Below, in pieces: positions 8,982-17,078 of a stretch of DNA of 64,000 nucleotides. The stretch is from Deltaproteobacteria bacterium (GTDB lineage Bacteria > Myxococcota_A > UBA9160 > UBA4427), in contig JAJDAO010000075.1 in the NCBI GenBank assembly GCA_029261835.1, positions 124,001 through 188,000 on the forward strand, read 5' to 3'. Numbering within the stretch: position 1 is the stretch's first letter; each line of letters opens with the position of its first letter. Position numbers and translations under genes: made by a program. The notes below the pieces were generated by a model that saw nothing but the letters and a program-made list of their open reading frames with translations, was not told the origin of the DNA and did not search any database.

Positions 8982-9046
8982 CCCGGATTATTCATGAAGC
9001 TCCTACTGCGGCCTCGCTACGAACCTTCATGAATAATCCGGGCTAG
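8978..9046. terminator. 22-bp perfect inverted repeat containing the stop codons of tkt and dnaE2
   Basis: Arms 8978-8999 and 9025-9046 are perfect reverse complements (CTAGCCCGGATTATTC... against ...GAATAATCCGGGCTAG) around a 25-nt loop. Each arm carries the TAG of one convergent gene. Placement and symmetry suit a bidirectional terminator, but there is no classical U tract. The AT-rich core and exact symmetry also resemble the ends of a small palindromic repeat element. Confidence 0.6.
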
Positions 9047-12000
9047 CGGTAGCTCCGTGAAGGCGGCAGTGCGCCGCCCGTGTCGAGTCGCGTCAGATCG
9101 TTCAGGCGGATGTGCACAACGCCGTCGAGGCTCTGGAGTGGCCCGGCGAGTTCGACCAGCTTGGCGTCGTGCATGGTCGCGCGGAAACGCGCGACCATGT
9201 TTGGTGTCATGATGACATTGGCCAGACCGGTTTCGTCCTCCAGGGTGAGGAAGAGGAAGCCTTTGGCCGAGCCCGGGCGTTGGCGAACGATTACATGGCC
9301 CGCAGTGCGCACGAAGTGGCCGTCGGGTAGATGCTGCAGCTCACCGGCAGTGAGAATGCCGCGCCGGTGCAACGTGGGGCGCAGGTGGGCCATGACCTGG
9401 GGGCCGGTGGTGAGGCCGGCCAGGCGGTAATCGGCCAGGGTTGTTTCGAGCGGAGACATCTCTTCGAGCACCGCGCTCGCCGCCTCTTCTGCTCCTTCAG
9501 GCGTGTGATCCGCCAATGGCTCGTGATCTGCTGACGACACATGGCCCGCAAAGAGCGAGTTCGGGTCACGCTCGGCCGCAGCCACCTGCCAGAGGGCTGC
9601 TCGGCGTCCGCGCGGTGTGCCCTCGAGCTCGCCCAGAGCACCCAGCTCGGCGAGCGAGTCGAGTTCGTCCGCTCGCAAGAAGACGCGCCCGAGCATGTCA
9701 CCCAGGCTCTCGAAGGGCTTCTGCTCACGCGCTGTCTCCAAGCGGCGGGCCGTCTCGCGGCGCAAGCCGGAGGCGTATGCCAGCCCGATGCGTACTGTGG
9801 GCCCAGCACCCTCGCCCTCTTCGAGCGCGCAACGCCAGTGCGAGCGGGTTACATCGATGGGGCGCACCACCACGCCGTGGCGCTGCGCGTCCTTCACCAG
9901 TGTCGCCGGGTTGTAGAAGCCCATGGGGTAAGCGTTCAGCAGGCCCACCAGAAAGGCCGCCGGGTGGTGGCACTTGAGATAGGCCGACGCGTAGGCGATC
10001 AGTGCGAAGGAGGCGGAGTGGGATTCCGGGAAGCCGTAGAGCGCGAACGATGTGATATGGCGAACGATCTCCTCCTGGGCGTTGTCGGGGATTCCCCGCT
10101 CTTGCATGCCCCGCCGCAGGCTGGCCTCGATCTTCTCCATCCTTTCGAGGGAGCGCTTGAACCCCATGGCCCGGCGCAGCTCTTCGGCCTCACCGCCGCT
10201 GAAGCCCGCTACCGTCATTGCGACTCGCAGTAGCTGTTCCTGGAAGATCGGGACACCGAGGGTTCGCTTCAGTATTGGCTCGAGAGAGGGATGGGGATAG
10301 CTCACCGGCTCCCGCCCGGCCCGGCGGTTCAGGTAGGGATGCACCATCTGCCCGACAATGGGCCCGGGACGAATGATGGCGATCTCGACGACTAAATCGT
10401 AGAAGTGCCGTGGCTTCATGCGCGGCAGCGTCGCCATCTGGGCTCGACTCTCGATCTGAAAGACGCCGACGGTGTCGGCCTGTCTCATCATTGCGTAGGT
10501 ATCGGGATCGTCCTGGGGCAGGTGCGCCAGGTCGATCTCTACTTTCTCGTGGCTGCGAATGAGCGGAATGGTCTCCTCCAGCGCTGCCAGCATGCCGAGT
10601 CCCAGCAGGTCTATCTTGATGATGCCGAGGTCCGCGCAGTCATCCTTGTCCCATTGCACCACCCTGCGCCCCGCCATGCTGGCGGGCTCGATGGGGACCA
10701 CCTCGTCGAGCCGGTTGGCGGCGATCACGACTCCGCCGCTGTGCTGTCCCAGGTGTCGCGGCAAGCCCTGCACGGCGGACACGAGCTGTAAGAGCCGCTC
10801 GATGCGTGGGGCAGCAGCGTCGATGCCGATCTCGCGCAAAGGCTCGGAGAGGGTGGTCGGGTCGCGGCTGCCATCCAGCCGCCCAAGCTGTTTGGCCAAT
10901 CGATCGACGGTATCGGGGGCCAGGCCGATGACCTTGCCCATCTCACGCACCGCCAGCTTGCTGCGGTAGCTGATGACATTGGCCGTCATGGCGGCACCCT
11001 GTTCGCCATACTTTTCGAAGACGTACTGGATGACTCGTTCGCGTTGGTCGCCGGAGGGTAGGTCGAGGTCGATGTCCGGCCACTCGCCGCGTTCTTCGGA
11101 GAGGAAACGTTCGAAGAGAAGCTCCATTCCGACCGGGTCAACCGCCGTGATGCCGAGTGCGTAACACACGGCGCTGTTGGCTGCAGAGCCTCGTCCCTGG
11201 CAGAGGATGTGTTGCTCTTGGGCGAAGCGCGCCAAGTCGTGAACGATCAGGAAGTAGCCCGCTAGCTCGAGCTTCTCGATCACCGCGAGCTCGTGCTCGA
11301 GCTGGCGACGTACGCGCTTGGAGAGAGGTTGGCCGTAGCGTTCGTGTGCGCCGAGAATGCTGAGTTCGCGCAGGCGGCTGGTCTGGGTTTCGCCCGGGTG
11401 CAGTGGGTACTCGGGGAAGCGGTAGCCGAGTCTCTCGAACGTGAAGCTACAGCGTTCTGCGATGCTGCGGGTGGCGCGCACCCAGTCGGGTCGGTCGCTG
11501 AAGCGCGCTGCCATCGTCTGGCGGCTCTGGAGATAGCGCTCGCCATTGGGCAGCAGACGCCGGCCCGCCGCATCGAGGGTGGTCTTCCAACGCAGGCAGG
11601 TCAGTGCGTCGAGCAGCGCACGACCCTGCGGTGTGGCACAGCGCACATCACCGCTCGCGACTACCGGTACGCCCGCCGTTTCCGCGATGGCTGCCGCCCG
11701 CCGGCACATTGGCTCGGTTCGGCGCTCCATGTGGCGAGAGACGTCCACCCAGAGTCGCCCGGGATCATTGCCGAAAGCGGCTCGGGCGCGGTCGAGCAGG
11801 GCGGGCGAGAGTCGCTCGTCACCGCGGATCAGAACGGTGAGATCGCGCGCGTACTCCTCGATCTGTGTCCAAGCGACACGGCATTCGCCCTTGGCCCGCC
11901 CATGATGACCCAGTGTGAGAAGCCGGCAGAGGCGCCGCCACCCTCTGGGCGATTCCACCAGCAGCAACAGTGAATCGGCCGCATCACTTGTCGCCTCCCT

Positions 12001-12216
12001 CTGCACCTCGAGCTCGGCGCCCAGGATCGCTCGTATGCCGGCTTGGCGGGCTGCGCGGTGGAAGCGGGGTGCACCGTAGACCCCGCCTCGATCGGCCAGG
12101 GCCAGAGAGGGGTAGTCGAGTGTGGCTGCCCGCTCGACCAGCTCCTCGGGATTGGACGCGCCCTCGAGAAACGAAAAGGCGCTGCGTGCCCGCAGCTCGA
12201 CGTAGTCATCACTCAT
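9043..12216 (-). CDS. dnaE2: Error-prone DNA polymerase III alpha subunit DnaE2
   Basis: 1057 aa. C-family polymerase that copies past lesions together with ImuA and ImuB. The N-terminal PHP domain starts VELRARSAFSFLEGAS and lacks the usual H-x-H pair. The palm has the catalytic acidic cluster PDIDLDLPSGDQRE, then thumb, finger and HhH segments (LGIIKIDLLGLG, GVPIFQEQLLRVA), and a C-terminal OB fold (VRTAGHVIVRQRPGSAKGFLFLTLEDE). I start at ATG 12216; a longer frame to 12528 runs into the divergent gene. The promoter just upstream carries a direct-repeat operator shared with imuA, so DNA-damage induction is likely. Confidence 0.94.
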   Translation of the reverse strand: MSDDYVELRARSAFSFLEGASNPEELVERAATLDYPSLALADRGGVYGAPRFHRAARQAGIRAILGAELEVQREATSDAADSLLLLVESPRGWRRLCRLLTLGHHGRAKGECRVAWTQIEEYARDLTVLIRGDERLSPALLDRARAAFGNDPGRLWVDVSRHMERRTEPMCRRAAAIAETAGVPVVASGDVRCATPQGRALLDALTCLRWKTTLDAAGRRLLPNGERYLQSRQTMAARFSDRPDWVRATRSIAERCSFTFERLGYRFPEYPLHPGETQTSRLRELSILGAHERYGQPLSKRVRRQLEHELAVIEKLELAGYFLIVHDLARFAQEQHILCQGRGSAANSAVCYALGITAVDPVGMELLFERFLSEERGEWPDIDLDLPSGDQRERVIQYVFEKYGEQGAAMTANVISYRSKLAVREMGKVIGLAPDTVDRLAKQLGRLDGSRDPTTLSEPLREIGIDAAAPRIERLLQLVSAVQGLPRHLGQHSGGVVIAANRLDEVVPIEPASMAGRRVVQWDKDDCADLGIIKIDLLGLGMLAALEETIPLIRSHEKVEIDLAHLPQDDPDTYAMMRQADTVGVFQIESRAQMATLPRMKPRHFYDLVVEIAIIRPGPIVGQMVHPYLNRRAGREPVSYPHPSLEPILKRTLGVPIFQEQLLRVAMTVAGFSGGEAEELRRAMGFKRSLERMEKIEASLRRGMQERGIPDNAQEEIVRHITSFALYGFPESHSASFALIAYASAYLKCHHPAAFLVGLLNAYPMGFYNPATLVKDAQRHGVVVRPIDVTRSHWRCALEEGEGAGPTVRIGLAYASGLRRETARRLETAREQKPFESLGDMLGRVFLRADELDSLAELGALGELEGTPRGRRAALWQVAAAERDPNSLFAGHVSSADHEPLADHTPEGAEEAASAVLEEMSPLETTLADYRLAGLTTGPQVMAHLRPTLHRRGILTAGELQHLPDGHFVRTAGHVIVRQRPGSAKGFLFLTLEDETGLANVIMTPNMVARFRATMHDAKLVELAGPLQSLDGVVHIRLNDLTRLDTGGALPPSRSYR

Positions 12217-12225
12217 CCGGTTCGC

Positions 12226-12254
12226 TATTTTCGCCTTGTTTTCGCCCTGGTCAA
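12226..12254 (-). promoter_or_regulatory. dnaE2 promoter with TTTTCG-N5-TTTTCG direct-repeat operator (putative SOS box)
   Basis: On the minus strand, -35 TTGACC (12254-12249), a 17-nt spacer and -10 AAAATA (12231-12226) precede ATG 12216 by 9 nt. On the plus strand two TTTTCG copies (12228-12233, 12239-12244) repeat with an 11-base period across the spacer and -10. The 21-base block matches that of imuA at 18 positions. A repressor bound here would block the promoter. The identity of the repressor, presumably LexA, is inference. Confidence 0.65.
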
Positions 12255-12355
12255 GAGGATCTTCCATGTCGAGTCGCCGCATTCCGGTCGTGTTGTGGAG
12301 CGGCTTCAGGGGCCCGACAGCGCGACGGGGAACGCCCTTGTATTCTCTGGCTCCA

Positions 12356-12736
12356 ATGACGAGCACCGTGCTGATCGCCGACGACGAGCCGCAGCTCTTG
12401 CGGCTACTCGTTCGTATCTTCGAACGGGGGGGGTTTCGCGCTCTGGCGGCTAAGGACGGCGACGCCGCCATCGAGATGTTCGAGCAGCATGTCGACGAGA
12501 TCGACGTATTGGTGCTCGACGTGATCATTCCGCCCAGGGGGGTGGCCGAAGTACTCGAAGCGGTGTCGGGACGGAAGCCGAGCCTCGGCCTGGTGCTGAC
12601 GAGTGGCGATCAGCTATCGCCTGGTTTGCAGGAGCTGCTTCACAAGCAGGGTGGTGTCTTTCTCCGCAAGCCCTTCCTCCCGAAGCTACTGCTTCGCACC
12701 GTGCAGGAGCTGGGCTCGGCCGCAGAAGCGGAGTGA
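12356..12736 (+). CDS. Single-domain response regulator (receiver only)
   Basis: 126 aa, only a CheY-like receiver domain: acidic pocket in IADDEPQ (D9, D10), phospho-acceptor D55 in VLVLDVIIP, T82 and K105 in LRKPF. There is no output domain. ATG 12356 has no ribosome site but a TATTCT box 9 nt upstream, so the mRNA may be leaderless. Its stop overlaps the dinB start (GTGA at 12733-12736), implying translational coupling with the polymerase. It is divergent from dnaE2. The cognate kinase is not adjacent. Confidence 0.85.
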   Translation: MTSTVLIADDEPQLLRLLVRIFERGGFRALAAKDGDAAIEMFEQHVDEIDVLVLDVIIPPRGVAEVLEAVSGRKPSLGLVLTSGDQLSPGLQELLHKQGGVFLRKPFLPKLLLRTVQELGSAAEAE

Positions 12737-14004
12737 GCCGCGTCGTGGTCCGCCCGGCGGCTCGCCCGCGATGCATCCTGCATGCTGACATGGACGCCTT
12801 CTACGCCTCGGTCGAGCAGCGAGACCGGCCCGAGCTGCGTGGTCGGCCGGTGGCCGTCGGTGGGGAGAGCCGCCGCGGTGTGGTGTCGGCGGCGAGCTAC
12901 GAGGCGCGGCGTTACGGCATCCATTCCGCCATGCCGAGCTTCGAGGCCAAGCGGCTCTGCCCCGACCTGGTCTTTCTGCGCGGAGACATGGTCCGCTACA
13001 GCCGGGAGTCGCGTCGTATCTTCGAGATCTTTCGCGAATTCTCCCCGGTGGTGGAAGGACTCTCGCTCGACGAGGCATTCCTGGATCTCTCGGGCTGCGA
13101 GCGCCTGCTCGGGCGCCCGGCGGCCGTCGGTGAGCGTCTGCGAGCGCGCGTGCGTCAGGAGACCGGGCTAGCGGTCTCCGTGGGGATCGCGCCGGTGAAG
13201 CTGGTGGCCAAGATCGCCAGCGCTGCAGCCAAGCCGGACGGATTGCTCGAAGTGCCGCCGCAGCGGGTACGTGAGTTTCTGGATCCGCTGCCGGTACGCT
13301 GCATCTGGGGCATTGGTTCGGTTGCCGAGCGACGGCTGGCTGACGCCGGCTTCCTCAGCGCGGGTGACCTCGCCCGCGCTGAGGACTCGCTGCTCGAGAA
13401 GCTTTTCGGTGAGCGCGGAATCAAGCTTGCGCGGCTGGCTCGCGGCGAGGATCTGCGCGAGATCGAGGCGCATCGGGAGGCGGTCTCCTATAGCGAGGAG
13501 AACACCTTCGACGAGGACATCTCGGACCGCGGCCTGCTCGAGGCCACGATTCTCACGCATGCCGAGTCTGTGGCGCGCCGGCTGCGGCGCGACGGGCTGC
13601 GCGGGCGGACGCTGGTGTTGAAGTGGCGCGAAGCGAGGCGCCGGAGCCAGGGGCCGCGAGGCTACCCGCTCCACACCCGCCAGACCACGTTGTTCGAGGC
13701 GACCAACGATGGCGGGGAGATCGCCCGGGAGGTTCGCCGTCTGCTCGTGCAGGCGCATCTGTCTGCAGCCGTGCGATTGATCGGCGTGGGCGTCACGGGC
13801 CTCGAGGATGCCGATGCCGGGCAGCTCCCGCTCTTCGGCCGCGCGGAGGGCAGCGAACGGCGCGACCGGCTCAACAGCGCGCTCGATGAGATTGCCGCTC
13901 GCTTCGGTTCTGGCGCTGTCGCGCGCGCCAGCCAGGGTAGCGCCGAGCGCGCCGGACTATCGCTTCAGATCAAGCGGGGAGAGCCTCCGCACTCGAATGG
14001 CTGA
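12733..14004 (+). CDS. dinB: DNA polymerase IV (Y family)
   Basis: 423 aa. Translesion polymerase with the intact active site: HADMDAFYASVEQ near residue 17 and SLDEAFLDLSG near 115, then the helix-hairpin-helix (GIGSVAERRLADAGF) and the little-finger domain. A QLPLF motif near residue 360 fits the sliding-clamp binding pentapeptide. The GTG start overlaps the receiver gene's TGA by 4 nt. The last 35 nt overlap the convergent methyltransferase gene. Likely expressed with the receiver gene from the divergent dnaE2 control region. Confidence 0.94.
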   Translation: MSRVVVRPAARPRCILHADMDAFYASVEQRDRPELRGRPVAVGGESRRGVVSAASYEARRYGIHSAMPSFEAKRLCPDLVFLRGDMVRYSRESRRIFEIFREFSPVVEGLSLDEAFLDLSGCERLLGRPAAVGERLRARVRQETGLAVSVGIAPVKLVAKIASAAAKPDGLLEVPPQRVREFLDPLPVRCIWGIGSVAERRLADAGFLSAGDLARAEDSLLEKLFGERGIKLARLARGEDLREIEAHREAVSYSEENTFDEDISDRGLLEATILTHAESVARRLRRDGLRGRTLVLKWREARRRSQGPRGYPLHTRQTTLFEATNDGGEIAREVRRLLVQAHLSAAVRLIGVGVTGLEDADAGQLPLFGRAEGSERRDRLNSALDEIAARFGSGAVARASQGSAERAGLSLQIKRGEPPHSNG

Positions 14005-14584
14005 GGTCCCAGCGATAGACCCGCATGGGAGGCACATTCAAGAGCTCGGTCTGGATCGAGGCGTTGCCGAAGACATTGACGCCCAGCGTGTGAACGCGGT
14101 CGCGAAACTGGTAGGCGACGAAGCGGCCGCCCGGGGCAAGGCTGTCGCGCACCGAGCGCAGAATGTCGGTGCCGAGTGAGGGATTCATGGTGGAGAACGG
14201 AATGCCGGACAGGATGACGTCCGGCTGATCCAGAGCGTGGTGCGCCAGGATCGACGGGATCTGTGTGGCGCTTCCCTGATGGACGATGAGTCGCGGGTCT
14301 TTGATGTGCGAGCGGAGAAGGCCGACGAAGTGGGGGTTGATCTCGATGACGAGCAGCTGCGCGCCGGGTGCCAGGTTGCGCAGCAGGGCTCGCGTGGTCC
14401 CGCCGGTTCCCGGGCCGAGCTCAACCGCGAGTCGAGCCGATGCGAGGTCGGCGGTCTTGACGATGCGGCGCTCCATGAATCGCGAGCTGGGAATGACCGA
14501 TCCCACCTCTTTCGGGCGTGTGAGAAATCCGCGCAGGAATGCGAGGCGGTGGTCTTTTCGCGACAGGGCGTTCGGTGCCTTCAT
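13970..14584 (-). CDS. SAM-dependent methyltransferase, phospholipid N-methyltransferase (PmtA)-like
   Basis: 204 aa, class I methyltransferase fold. The N-terminal segment FLRGFLTRPKEVGSVIPSSRFMERRIV and the SAM loop VELGPGTGGTTRALL match PmtA-type enzymes that methylate phosphatidylethanolamine toward phosphatidylcholine, a group related to the KsgA/Erm rRNA dimethylases. A later motif is LSGIPFSTM. No signal or membrane helix is visible. It sits between dinB and imuB without obvious functional link and overlaps the dinB 3' end on the opposite strand. Confidence 0.75.
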   Translation of the reverse strand: MKAPNALSRKDHRLAFLRGFLTRPKEVGSVIPSSRFMERRIVKTADLASARLAVELGPGTGGTTRALLRNLAPGAQLLVIEINPHFVGLLRSHIKDPRLIVHQGSATQIPSILAHHALDQPDVILSGIPFSTMNPSLGTDILRSVRDSLAPGGRFVAYQFRDRVHTLGVNVFGNASIQTELLNVPPMRVYRWDLSHSSAEALPA

Positions 14585-14711
14585 GTCAGCTGGCTTCCTT
14601 TTCGATCTTCGGCTGCGAGGAGTTCAGCTTACTTGAGCCGGCGCGGGGAATGGAGATGTGCTTGGTCGGCTTCTTGGGCACGGCCCGCGGGTTGTGTTCG
14701 CGGCTGCGAGT

Positions 14712-16262
14712 TTAGTCGTAGATCCCATCGATTTGCCAGACCTGCTGCAACCAATCGAAGCACAGGCGAACCACTGCTCCGTCACTCATTTGGACATCGA
14801 AGTGATCGACGGCGAAACGGTCTTCTTTCGACCACCAATGACCGGTGGTACGCCATGGGCCGGCAATCATGACCACGTGGCCGTTGCTGATTGCACTGCG
14901 AATGAAAGACGGTTGTCCATGGTCGATCCGCACTGCTGCCGGCACAGGCGGCCGTAGGGCTCGGACGGCGGGTTGGGTGGGTGGGGGGCAGGCGTCGGAA
15001 GCAGTGTGATCTCGCTGGGTTCGGCCGGGTCCAGAGCGGTCGGAGGGGGGCTGGAAGGGCTTCAGTCCGAAGGCGCTGGGATGGTGGGTGTCGGCGACCT
15101 CGGGCGTGCCGACACATCCCTCACCGCAGAGAGATTCGAGCTTGCTCAGGGTGCGGTCGAGGGCCGCGGGGTTTGGACCCCGAGGCCGGAAGAGATCGAG
15201 CTGGTCGCTGCGTGCGGGCACGCCTCGAGTGCCGACGGAGAGGCCCTCGATTGCGGCGCCTGGGGGTTGATCGGCCAGAGCCAGCATGCTGAGCCGCAAT
15301 AGCACCCGCACGTCGAGAGTGGGGGTCGTTGCACTCACTCGCCGGGCATCGCGCCCGCCACCCTCGACGACGAACTCCAGGTCCAGCGATCGGCAGGCTA
15401 GAGAGCGCAGTGAGAGTCGCTCGGTCAGACGGGAGAGCAGCCCGCGCAGGACGAAGGAGAGAGGCTCGAGACTGGCGATGGGGGTCTCGAGGTCGATGGC
15501 CTCCTCCAGGCGTGTATCCGGGGGCTCGGGCAGCGGGGCCTCCACCTCCTCGCCTCGGGCGCGGGTGATCAAGTCGAGTATCTCCGGGCCCAGGCGTTGG
15601 CTCAGGGCACGTCGAGGCAGCCGCAGCAGGTCCCGCACCGTTCGTACACCGAAACGGGTGAGGGTCTGGGCCAACCGGTCGTCGGGGTCGAGCAGATCCA
15701 GGGAGAGGGGGGCGAGAAAATCGCTCTCATGGCGTGGGGGCAGAACTTGGATGCTGCCCGGCTCATGCGAGATGCAGCGTGCCACCAGCAGAGCCACTGC
15801 CTTCGAAGAGGCCAGTGAGACCACGCCTGGCAGCCCCTGCTTCACGCTCCGGGCCAGTAAGGCCGAGGCGAAGCCCTTCTCCGAGTGGAAGAGCGCGTCC
15901 GTTCCGGAGGCGTCGAGGAAGACGCCGCCCTCGGAAGCAAAGGGCCCCGTGGCTTGAGGCGCCAGGGCGGCACGGGGTGAGAGGGAGAGTGCGATGTCGA
16001 GCAGCGCATCCCGGGCCGTACGCTCGAGAGCGGGTGAAGCCACCTGCACCCTGAGTTTCGGGCAAGCGCTTCGGGCCTGGGCGACGGAGTTCCAACTGCG
16101 TACGCCGAAGGCGCGGGCGGTGGGGGAGATGACGATGATGTCGGCTTGGGCAGCTGGGCCCGAGGCCACCACCAAGGGGAGTTCGCTCAGCTCGGGGTGA
16201 GCCCGCAGCGCGGCCCGCAGCGGAAGATCGCGGACGAGCAGGCAGGCGATCCGAGTGCCCAT
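14712..16262 (-). CDS. imuB: ImuB-like Y-family polymerase homologue (inactive)
   Basis: 516 aa. Y-family fold whose first catalytic block reads CLLVRDLPLRA instead of D-x-D, and the S-x-D-E block reads FLDASGTDALF, so polymerase activity is not expected; known ImuB proteins bridge DnaE2 and the clamp. A QLDLF clamp-binding motif is present in the C-terminal third, and the tail (WWSKEDRFAVDHFDVQ... VWQIDGIYD) is the ImuB C-terminal domain. ATG 16262 lies 1 nt after the imuA stop, so the pair is one operon. A proline-rich linker precedes the tail. Confidence 0.88.
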   Translation of the reverse strand: MGTRIACLLVRDLPLRAALRAHPELSELPLVVASGPAAQADIIVISPTARAFGVRSWNSVAQARSACPKLRVQVASPALERTARDALLDIALSLSPRAALAPQATGPFASEGGVFLDASGTDALFHSEKGFASALLARSVKQGLPGVVSLASSKAVALLVARCISHEPGSIQVLPPRHESDFLAPLSLDLLDPDDRLAQTLTRFGVRTVRDLLRLPRRALSQRLGPEILDLITRARGEEVEAPLPEPPDTRLEEAIDLETPIASLEPLSFVLRGLLSRLTERLSLRSLACRSLDLEFVVEGGGRDARRVSATTPTLDVRVLLRLSMLALADQPPGAAIEGLSVGTRGVPARSDQLDLFRPRGPNPAALDRTLSKLESLCGEGCVGTPEVADTHHPSAFGLKPFQPPSDRSGPGRTQRDHTASDACPPPTQPAVRALRPPVPAAVRIDHGQPSFIRSAISNGHVVMIAGPWRTTGHWWSKEDRFAVDHFDVQMSDGAVVRLCFDWLQQVWQIDGIYD

Positions 16263-16263
16263 C

Positions 16264-17043
16264 TCACGAGGAGGCGCGGCGTGGCGTGGTTGCACTCAGG
16301 CGGACCACCACTTCGCGATCGCCTGGTATCGCCCGGTGACGCACCAGCACGGCCCGGGTCTCGAGCTCCTCGAGCAGGGAGGGTACACCGCTGTAAAGGG
16401 GCCGAGTCGGTCGCATCTCCAGGACGATCTCGGCCTGGGGACCGCTGAGACGCTGATCGGCGAGCGTCACCAGTGCTGTATTCGTGCCCGCCGCCAGCCG
16501 GGCGAGCCGGGTCCAGGCGGTATGGGGGATGGGGGAAGAGGGCTCAAGGGTGCAGGTGCGGTGAGATGCGCAAGCCAGGTCCAGCACGACGAGAGGAATG
16601 CCCTCGGTTTCGAGCAGGCGTTCGGTACAGCGCAGAGCACTGCGCCATTCGCCGGGTGCACGAGCCCAGAGCACCCGCTCCAGGTCCACGCCAGCTGCCT
16701 CGGCGGAGGGGGGGGTGAAGGCATCGGCTCGATCGACCACGGCGACGAACTCCCCACCTGCCCCGGTGGTTCTGGCCAGCAGAGCCAAGGCCAGAGAGGT
16801 GCGCCCCGACGAGAGCGGGCCGACGATTTCGCTCAGGCGGCCACGGGGAAAGCCGCCTCCCAGCAGGGCATCGATGGCAGCCAGGCCACTGGGATACCGG
16901 AGCAGGGGCTCCCGAGGCTCACCACCTCGTCGTAGCTGCTGGGGCCCGAGATCGGCGAGCAGGGCTTCGAGTCGCTCTGGAGACCGGATCGGCCCGGGCC
17001 TTGATCCAACAGGGGGGTGGGGACGCGCGAGGCCAGAAGGCAT
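16264..17043 (-). CDS. imuA: ImuA, RecA/SulA-like mutasome protein
   Basis: 259 aa. RecA-fold ATPase-like accessory protein: YPSGLAAIDALLGGGFPRGRLSEIVGP leads to a relaxed Walker A region (GPLSSGRTSLAL), then FVAVVDRADAFTPPSA and VVLDLACASH. With ImuB and DnaE2 it forms the mutasome for damage-induced mutagenesis. The first gene of the imuAB operon; its promoter carries the operator shared with dnaE2. AAGGAG directly abuts the ATG, which is too close to act as a ribosome site, and the predicted transcription start falls near the ATG. Confidence 0.85.
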   Translation of the reverse strand: MPSGLARPHPPVGSRPGPIRSPERLEALLADLGPQQLRRGGEPREPLLRYPSGLAAIDALLGGGFPRGRLSEIVGPLSSGRTSLALALLARTTGAGGEFVAVVDRADAFTPPSAEAAGVDLERVLWARAPGEWRSALRCTERLLETEGIPLVVLDLACASHRTCTLEPSSPIPHTAWTRLARLAAGTNTALVTLADQRLSGPQAEIVLEMRPTRPLYSGVPSLLEELETRAVLVRHRAIPGDREVVVRLSATTPRRASS

Positions 17044-17048
17044 CTCCT

Positions 17049-17078
17049 TATTTTCGTCTTACTTTCGCCTCCAGTCAA
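17049..17078 (-). promoter_or_regulatory. imuA promoter with direct-repeat operator (putative SOS box)
   Basis: Minus strand: -35 TTGACT (17078-17073), spacer 18 nt, -10 AAAATA (17054-17049), ATG at 17043. Plus strand: TTTTCG (17051-17056) and CTTTCG (17062-17067) repeat with an 11-base period, matching the dnaE2 block at 18 of 21 positions. No third copy with this spacing was found in the window. Confidence 0.65.

Follow-up and report, generated by a model that had tools for sequence, protein, structure and literature searches.

LexA-family repressors cleave themselves on RecA filaments, which derepresses such promoters, and recA is a usual but not a universal member of the SOS genes. In Gram-positive bacteria the box of LexA (DinR) reads CGAACN4GTTCG. 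The family is known for changing its operator, and few of the reported motifs are direct repeats. By 2021, 17 LexA motifs had been reported (PMC8565304). In the alphaproteobacteria Caulobacter and Rhodobacter the LexA box is the direct repeat GTTC-N7-GTTC, and in Caulobacter it controls imuA-imuB-dnaE2 (PMC9578287, PMC8565304). The LexA operator of the Balneolaeota is the direct repeat TTACACATATTTTWTACATA, and the authors of that work concluded that LexA has apparently gained direct-repeat recognition several times (PMC7739468). In Myxococcus xanthus the box is an imperfect palindrome, CTRHAMRYBYGTTCAGS, and the direct LexA targets found there are lexA, recA2 and pafBC-cyaA (PMC9705874).

Here, we describe two boxes in a 64 kb window, the whole stretch of DNA that was analysed. 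In this lineage the block TTTCG-N6-TTTCG very probably serves as the LexA operator, an SOS box of the direct-repeat type with LexA as its predicted ligand, and our best reading of the genes behind it is a regulon that would be centred on translesion synthesis and leave recA out. On the minus strand, dnaE2 (9043..12216) encodes an error-prone DNA polymerase (NF004225, 1245.7 bits against a cut-off of 939), and its start is most likely the ATG at 12216. The candidate operator of this gene, CGAAAACAAGGCGAAA on the gene strand, which is TTTCG-N6-TTTCG on the plus strand, lies at 12229..12244 (minus strand), with 12 bases between it and the start codon. Reading the sequence, we presume a -35 element TTGACC at 12249..12254 and a -10 element GAAAAT at 12227..12232, both on the minus strand, the latter within the downstream half-site. 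The candidate operator of imuA (16264..17043, minus strand) is CGAAAGTAAGACGAAA on the gene strand (17052..17067, minus strand) and ends 8 bases before the start codon. Its presumed -35 element TTGACT (17073..17078, minus strand) and -10 element GAAAAT (17050..17055, minus strand) were read in the same way, and the -10 again falls within the downstream half-site. The gene-strand layouts are TTGACC-N16-GAAAAT for dnaE2, in full CTTGACCAGGGCGAAAACAAGGCGAAAATAGCGAACCGGATG, and TTGACT-N17-GAAAAT for imuA, in full CTTGACTGGAGGCGAAAGTAAGACGAAAATAAGGAGATG, the two elements being 16 bp and 17 bp apart. The sequence-only reading had pointed to almost identical blocks at the two promoters, and this holds: on the plus strand TATTTTCGCCTTGTTTTCGCC (dnaE2) and TATTTTCGTCTTACTTTCGCC (imuA) are identical at 18 of 21 positions, the repeat has a period of 11 bases, and both sites are exact copies of TTTCG-N6-TTTCG. 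The imuA product is a RecA-like accessory protein (PF00154 RecA, 60.5 bits). Its match to the ImuA model NF033429 falls below the cut-off of that model, and the name rests on this weak match together with the adjacent imuB (14712..16295, minus strand; PF00817 and PF11799), which encodes a Y-family polymerase-like protein. The start of imuB overlaps the end of imuA, and the two presumably form a single operon. A dinB-like (Pol IV) gene at 12733-14004, without a box of its own, lies between both operators.

The genome encodes one LexA DNA-binding domain, that is, a single lexA (L008:1087-1689, minus strand). In its promoter, TTGACT-TTCGCTTTGGTTTCGCG-TAACTC, an exact copy of the box forms the spacer between -35 and -10, and TTGAC directly adjoins the first TTTCG. 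A second, weaker box in reverse orientation follows 33 bases further on. Most of the lexA loci (L008:1690-1800, L119 to L146) have a second, opposite box 28 to 37 bases later, which makes a convergent pair. The LexA protein is canonical (TIGR00498, 200.5 bits against a cut-off of 110.95), and alignment to solved LexA chains shows that it conserves the Ala-Gly cleavage site together with the Ser-Lys dyad. Among the 30 genomes of the GTDB family that made up our family set, the box stands upstream of lexA in all 28 that could be evaluated. Together with the box at the sole lexA of the genome itself, this supports the proposal, made from the letters of the window, of an unlisted direct-repeat SOS box. 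The comparison of dnaE2 and imuA upstream regions in relatives, suggested at the same time, gave the box at 32 of 33 dnaE2 genes (a count that adds relatives from the order to the family) and at 24 of 25 imuA genes. Within the same class, 48 of 91 genomes have the strict form of the lexA promoter, TTGACTTTCGN6TTTCG, whereas none of the 288 genomes from other parts of the phylum does. The box also led us to an SplB-like radical-SAM gene of the PA0069 family, which carries it at 16 of 16 loci with an intact upstream region; the genome of the window has no such gene. With lexA, dnaE2, imuA and the SplB-like radical-SAM gene, the box is common to repair and mutagenesis genes of the relatives, as had been foreseen. 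The dnaE1-like paralogues yielded three weak matches in 14 and no exact one, two of the three coming from genomes outside the class.

The genes named beforehand as places to look fared differently. The box is there at lexA, and in the own genome a box with one mismatch precedes a UvrD/PcrA-type helicase gene, but recA has none. Upstream of recA no box was found in the own genome, and 30 recA upstream regions gave a single weak match, which overlaps a ribosome-binding site and was taken as chance. A recA without the box leaves the case for a LexA operator standing, as recA1 of M. xanthus lacks one too (PMC9705874). The assembly further contains a second RecA-like gene (L010, G000:C104:17623-18261) on a contig that looks far less G+C-rich than the rest and may derive from a phage or have entered the assembly from a foreign source.

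The box can also be set against the protein that is predicted to read it. In a set of 45 LexA relatives, a box lies upstream in 34 of 34 cases with the recognition helix S[VP]AT[VI]H[KE]H and in 1 of 11 with other helices, where it is weak (Fisher p = 3e-9, a value inflated by shared ancestry). The 34 proteins with this signature include records labelled Nitrospinota, Gemmatimonadota and Krumholzibacteriia. The pairing of a single helix type with a single box is expected from recognition by LexA. Another damage-responsive regulator, such as an XRE-type protein like DdiA or a PafBC-like activator, might instead read the box and control lexA too. LexA-independent regulators of this kind are known, as dnaE2 is activated by DdiA in M. 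xanthus (PMC12288472), and LexA binding here is something we infer. However, the box tracks the recognition helix of LexA itself, it sits in every evaluable lexA promoter of the family as autoregulation predicts, and its position over promoter elements is that of a repressor site, all of which makes another regulator quite improbable.

The base counts give the consensus TTTCGYYTTNTTTTCGC, a direct repeat with an 11-bp period. Both half-sites lie on the same strand at every counted site, with no inverted partner. The first base of the half-site is T at 28 of 28 lexA and 32 of 32 dnaE2 sites, in a scan built on TTTCG with at most one mismatch; as the sites were gathered with TTTCG-N6-TTTCG, the invariance of the ten bases is partly built in, while the preferences in spacer and flanks are not. 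Orientation is constant for each gene. TTTCG is on the coding strand at lexA (28/28) and at the radical-SAM gene (16/16), whereas dnaE2 (32/32) and imuA (24/24) have the opposite orientation, with CGAAA on the coding strand. At the latter two genes the downstream half-site supplies the -10 element, GAAANT, with its T in 31 of 32 dnaE2 and 24 of 24 imuA boxes. In relatives (L091 to L113, L218 to L242) the first ATG or GTG of both genes is mostly found 7 to 8 bases past the box, and the dnaE2 and imuA mRNAs are therefore probably leaderless or near-leaderless. The box thus overlaps promoter elements, the promoters being read from consensus and not mapped. This overlap with -35 and -10 and the near-invariant T of GAAANT would also suit a promoter element, for example for a special sigma factor, in place of an operator. 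We consider this very unlikely, because the repeat faces opposite ways relative to transcription at lexA and the radical-SAM gene versus dnaE2 and imuA, occurs in each genome at only a few genes, most of them of SOS type, and co-occurs with the LexA helix type.

The exact box is rare. CGAAAN6CGAAA has 7 copies in the 6.5 Mb genome, about 0.07 per 64 kb, and these include dnaE2, imuA and the promoter of the sole lexA. With just 7 in 6.5 Mb, chance is an unlikely source of two exact copies within 64 kb that both stand at promoters of mutagenesis genes. The exact copies on contigs C9, C16 and C26 (L001 to L004; about 240 bases seen of each, no gene assigned) were taken as chance. When one mismatch was allowed, the window gave 2 matches with 2.4 expected, no better than chance, which is why the analysis turned to exact matches and to controls across genomes. 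In the 30 family genomes the longer pattern GCGAAANYNARNCGAAA has 49 matches versus 2 for the reversed control pattern. Of 250 random 510-bp stretches of coding sequence, 5 match the box at up to one mismatch, none exactly. A 17-base pattern with three mismatches gave 125 matches in the own genome against 138 for its control and is informative for the first few alone. That two AT-rich spacers merely look alike by chance, as the missing excess at one mismatch might suggest, is refuted by the same genes keeping the box in the same polarity across 30 genomes; the rarity of exact copies and the reversed control also speak against it.

Further genes may belong to the regulon. In relatives, the box precedes a UvrD-type helicase gene (L204) and an Lhr-type helicase gene (L213). 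In the own genome, contig C55 has a good promoter box, TTGACTTTCGCTTTTTGTTCGCCTAAT, flanked by tRNA-Lys(TTT) on one side and by a convergent Exo_endo_phos gene on the other. In five relatives (L247, L249, L252, L253, L255) the counterpart place beside the Exo_endo_phos gene codes for a conserved small protein, 102 to 136 amino acids long, whose C-terminus reads ...DAW.VPA.ANW.RTR...STDWALPF or a variant of it; one or more boxes precede the gene and tRNA-Lys(TTT) adjoins it in some genomes. The one member tested has no match in Pfam or NCBIfam, and the counterpart locus of the own genome (L217 around 2341) holds no clear homologue. This small protein could be a new SOS effector. In L244 and L256 to L258, apparent small open reading frames beside the box look antisense to the Exo_endo_phos gene and were not counted as homologues. 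One relative has a box that separates a phage integrase gene from a divergent HATPase_c_3 gene (L210:1501-1517), where a mobile element may be using the SOS box of its host.

We infer LexA binding, repression and induction from the pattern, its gene associations, polarity and conservation and the pairing with the helix, and they would combine as follows. A LexA dimer made from the single lexA would bind the two head-to-tail TTTCG half-sites and block RNA polymerase, which would be kept off since the box fills the spacer between -35 and -10 (lexA) or holds the -10 (dnaE2, imuA). When DNA is damaged, RecA filaments formed on single strands would bring about self-cleavage of LexA at the Ala-Gly bond. 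This would free lexA, as autoregulation, together with imuA-imuB and dnaE2, as well as the SplB-like radical-SAM protein in relatives that have this gene and, in some genomes, the UvrD- or Lhr-type helicases and the small conserved protein. With recA outside the box, the damage sensor would be made independently of LexA.

With such a box the DNA-damage regulon becomes readable in Myxococcota-like bacteria that have never been grown, and SOS regulons of uncultured lineages can be searched for with the repeat as a one-line pattern. New SOS gene candidates emerge as well, among them the small protein next to tRNA-Lys. Since the protein partner is defined, the binding of a symmetric dimer to a direct repeat becomes testable with naturally paired helices and boxes, for example on the site TTTCGYYTTNTTTTCG. 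A real but tentative possibility is that an old LexA operator type with one helix signature is common to the Myxococcota-like class and the lineages labelled Nitrospinota, Gemmatimonadota and Krumholzibacteriia. In the last two of these, no box stands upstream of the dnaE2-like genes, which may be internal to an operon there, so that outside the class it is only the lexA promoters that lend support. If the shared operator type is true, the fixed polarity per promoter would give DNA-bound LexA a functional direction.

Direct-repeat LexA boxes are thus already known, and it is the version with a TTTCG half-site that is apparently unreported. In the open-licence literature we found no earlier report of a TTTCG-N6-TTTCG motif in Deltaproteobacteria or Nitrospinae, and the TTTC(G) repeat is unlike the LexA motifs described there, in line with the first impression from the window. 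The half-site letters are close to those of the Gram-positive DinR box (TTCG/CGAA), but the halves there are inverted and more closely spaced, and no inverted partner exists here. M. xanthus offers a myxobacterial LexA box and, in recA1, a recA that lacks it like the one here; its box is a palindrome and not a direct repeat, and both sequence and targets differ. The alphaproteobacterial GTTC-N7-GTTC is the same kind of direct repeat with the same 11-base period, and the half-sites TTTC and GTTC are one base apart, so that the period and the differing half-site noticed at the outset both stand. The box described here differs in its TTTCG half-site, its conserved YYTT flanks and a recA without a box, and the alphaproteobacterial LexA recognition helix is probably different from the signature found here. 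The Balneolaeota operator differs in sequence and its regulon includes recA, yet it too is a direct repeat outside the alphaproteobacteria, and like the regulon proposed here its own has translesion polymerases together with a helicase and a radical-SAM protein.
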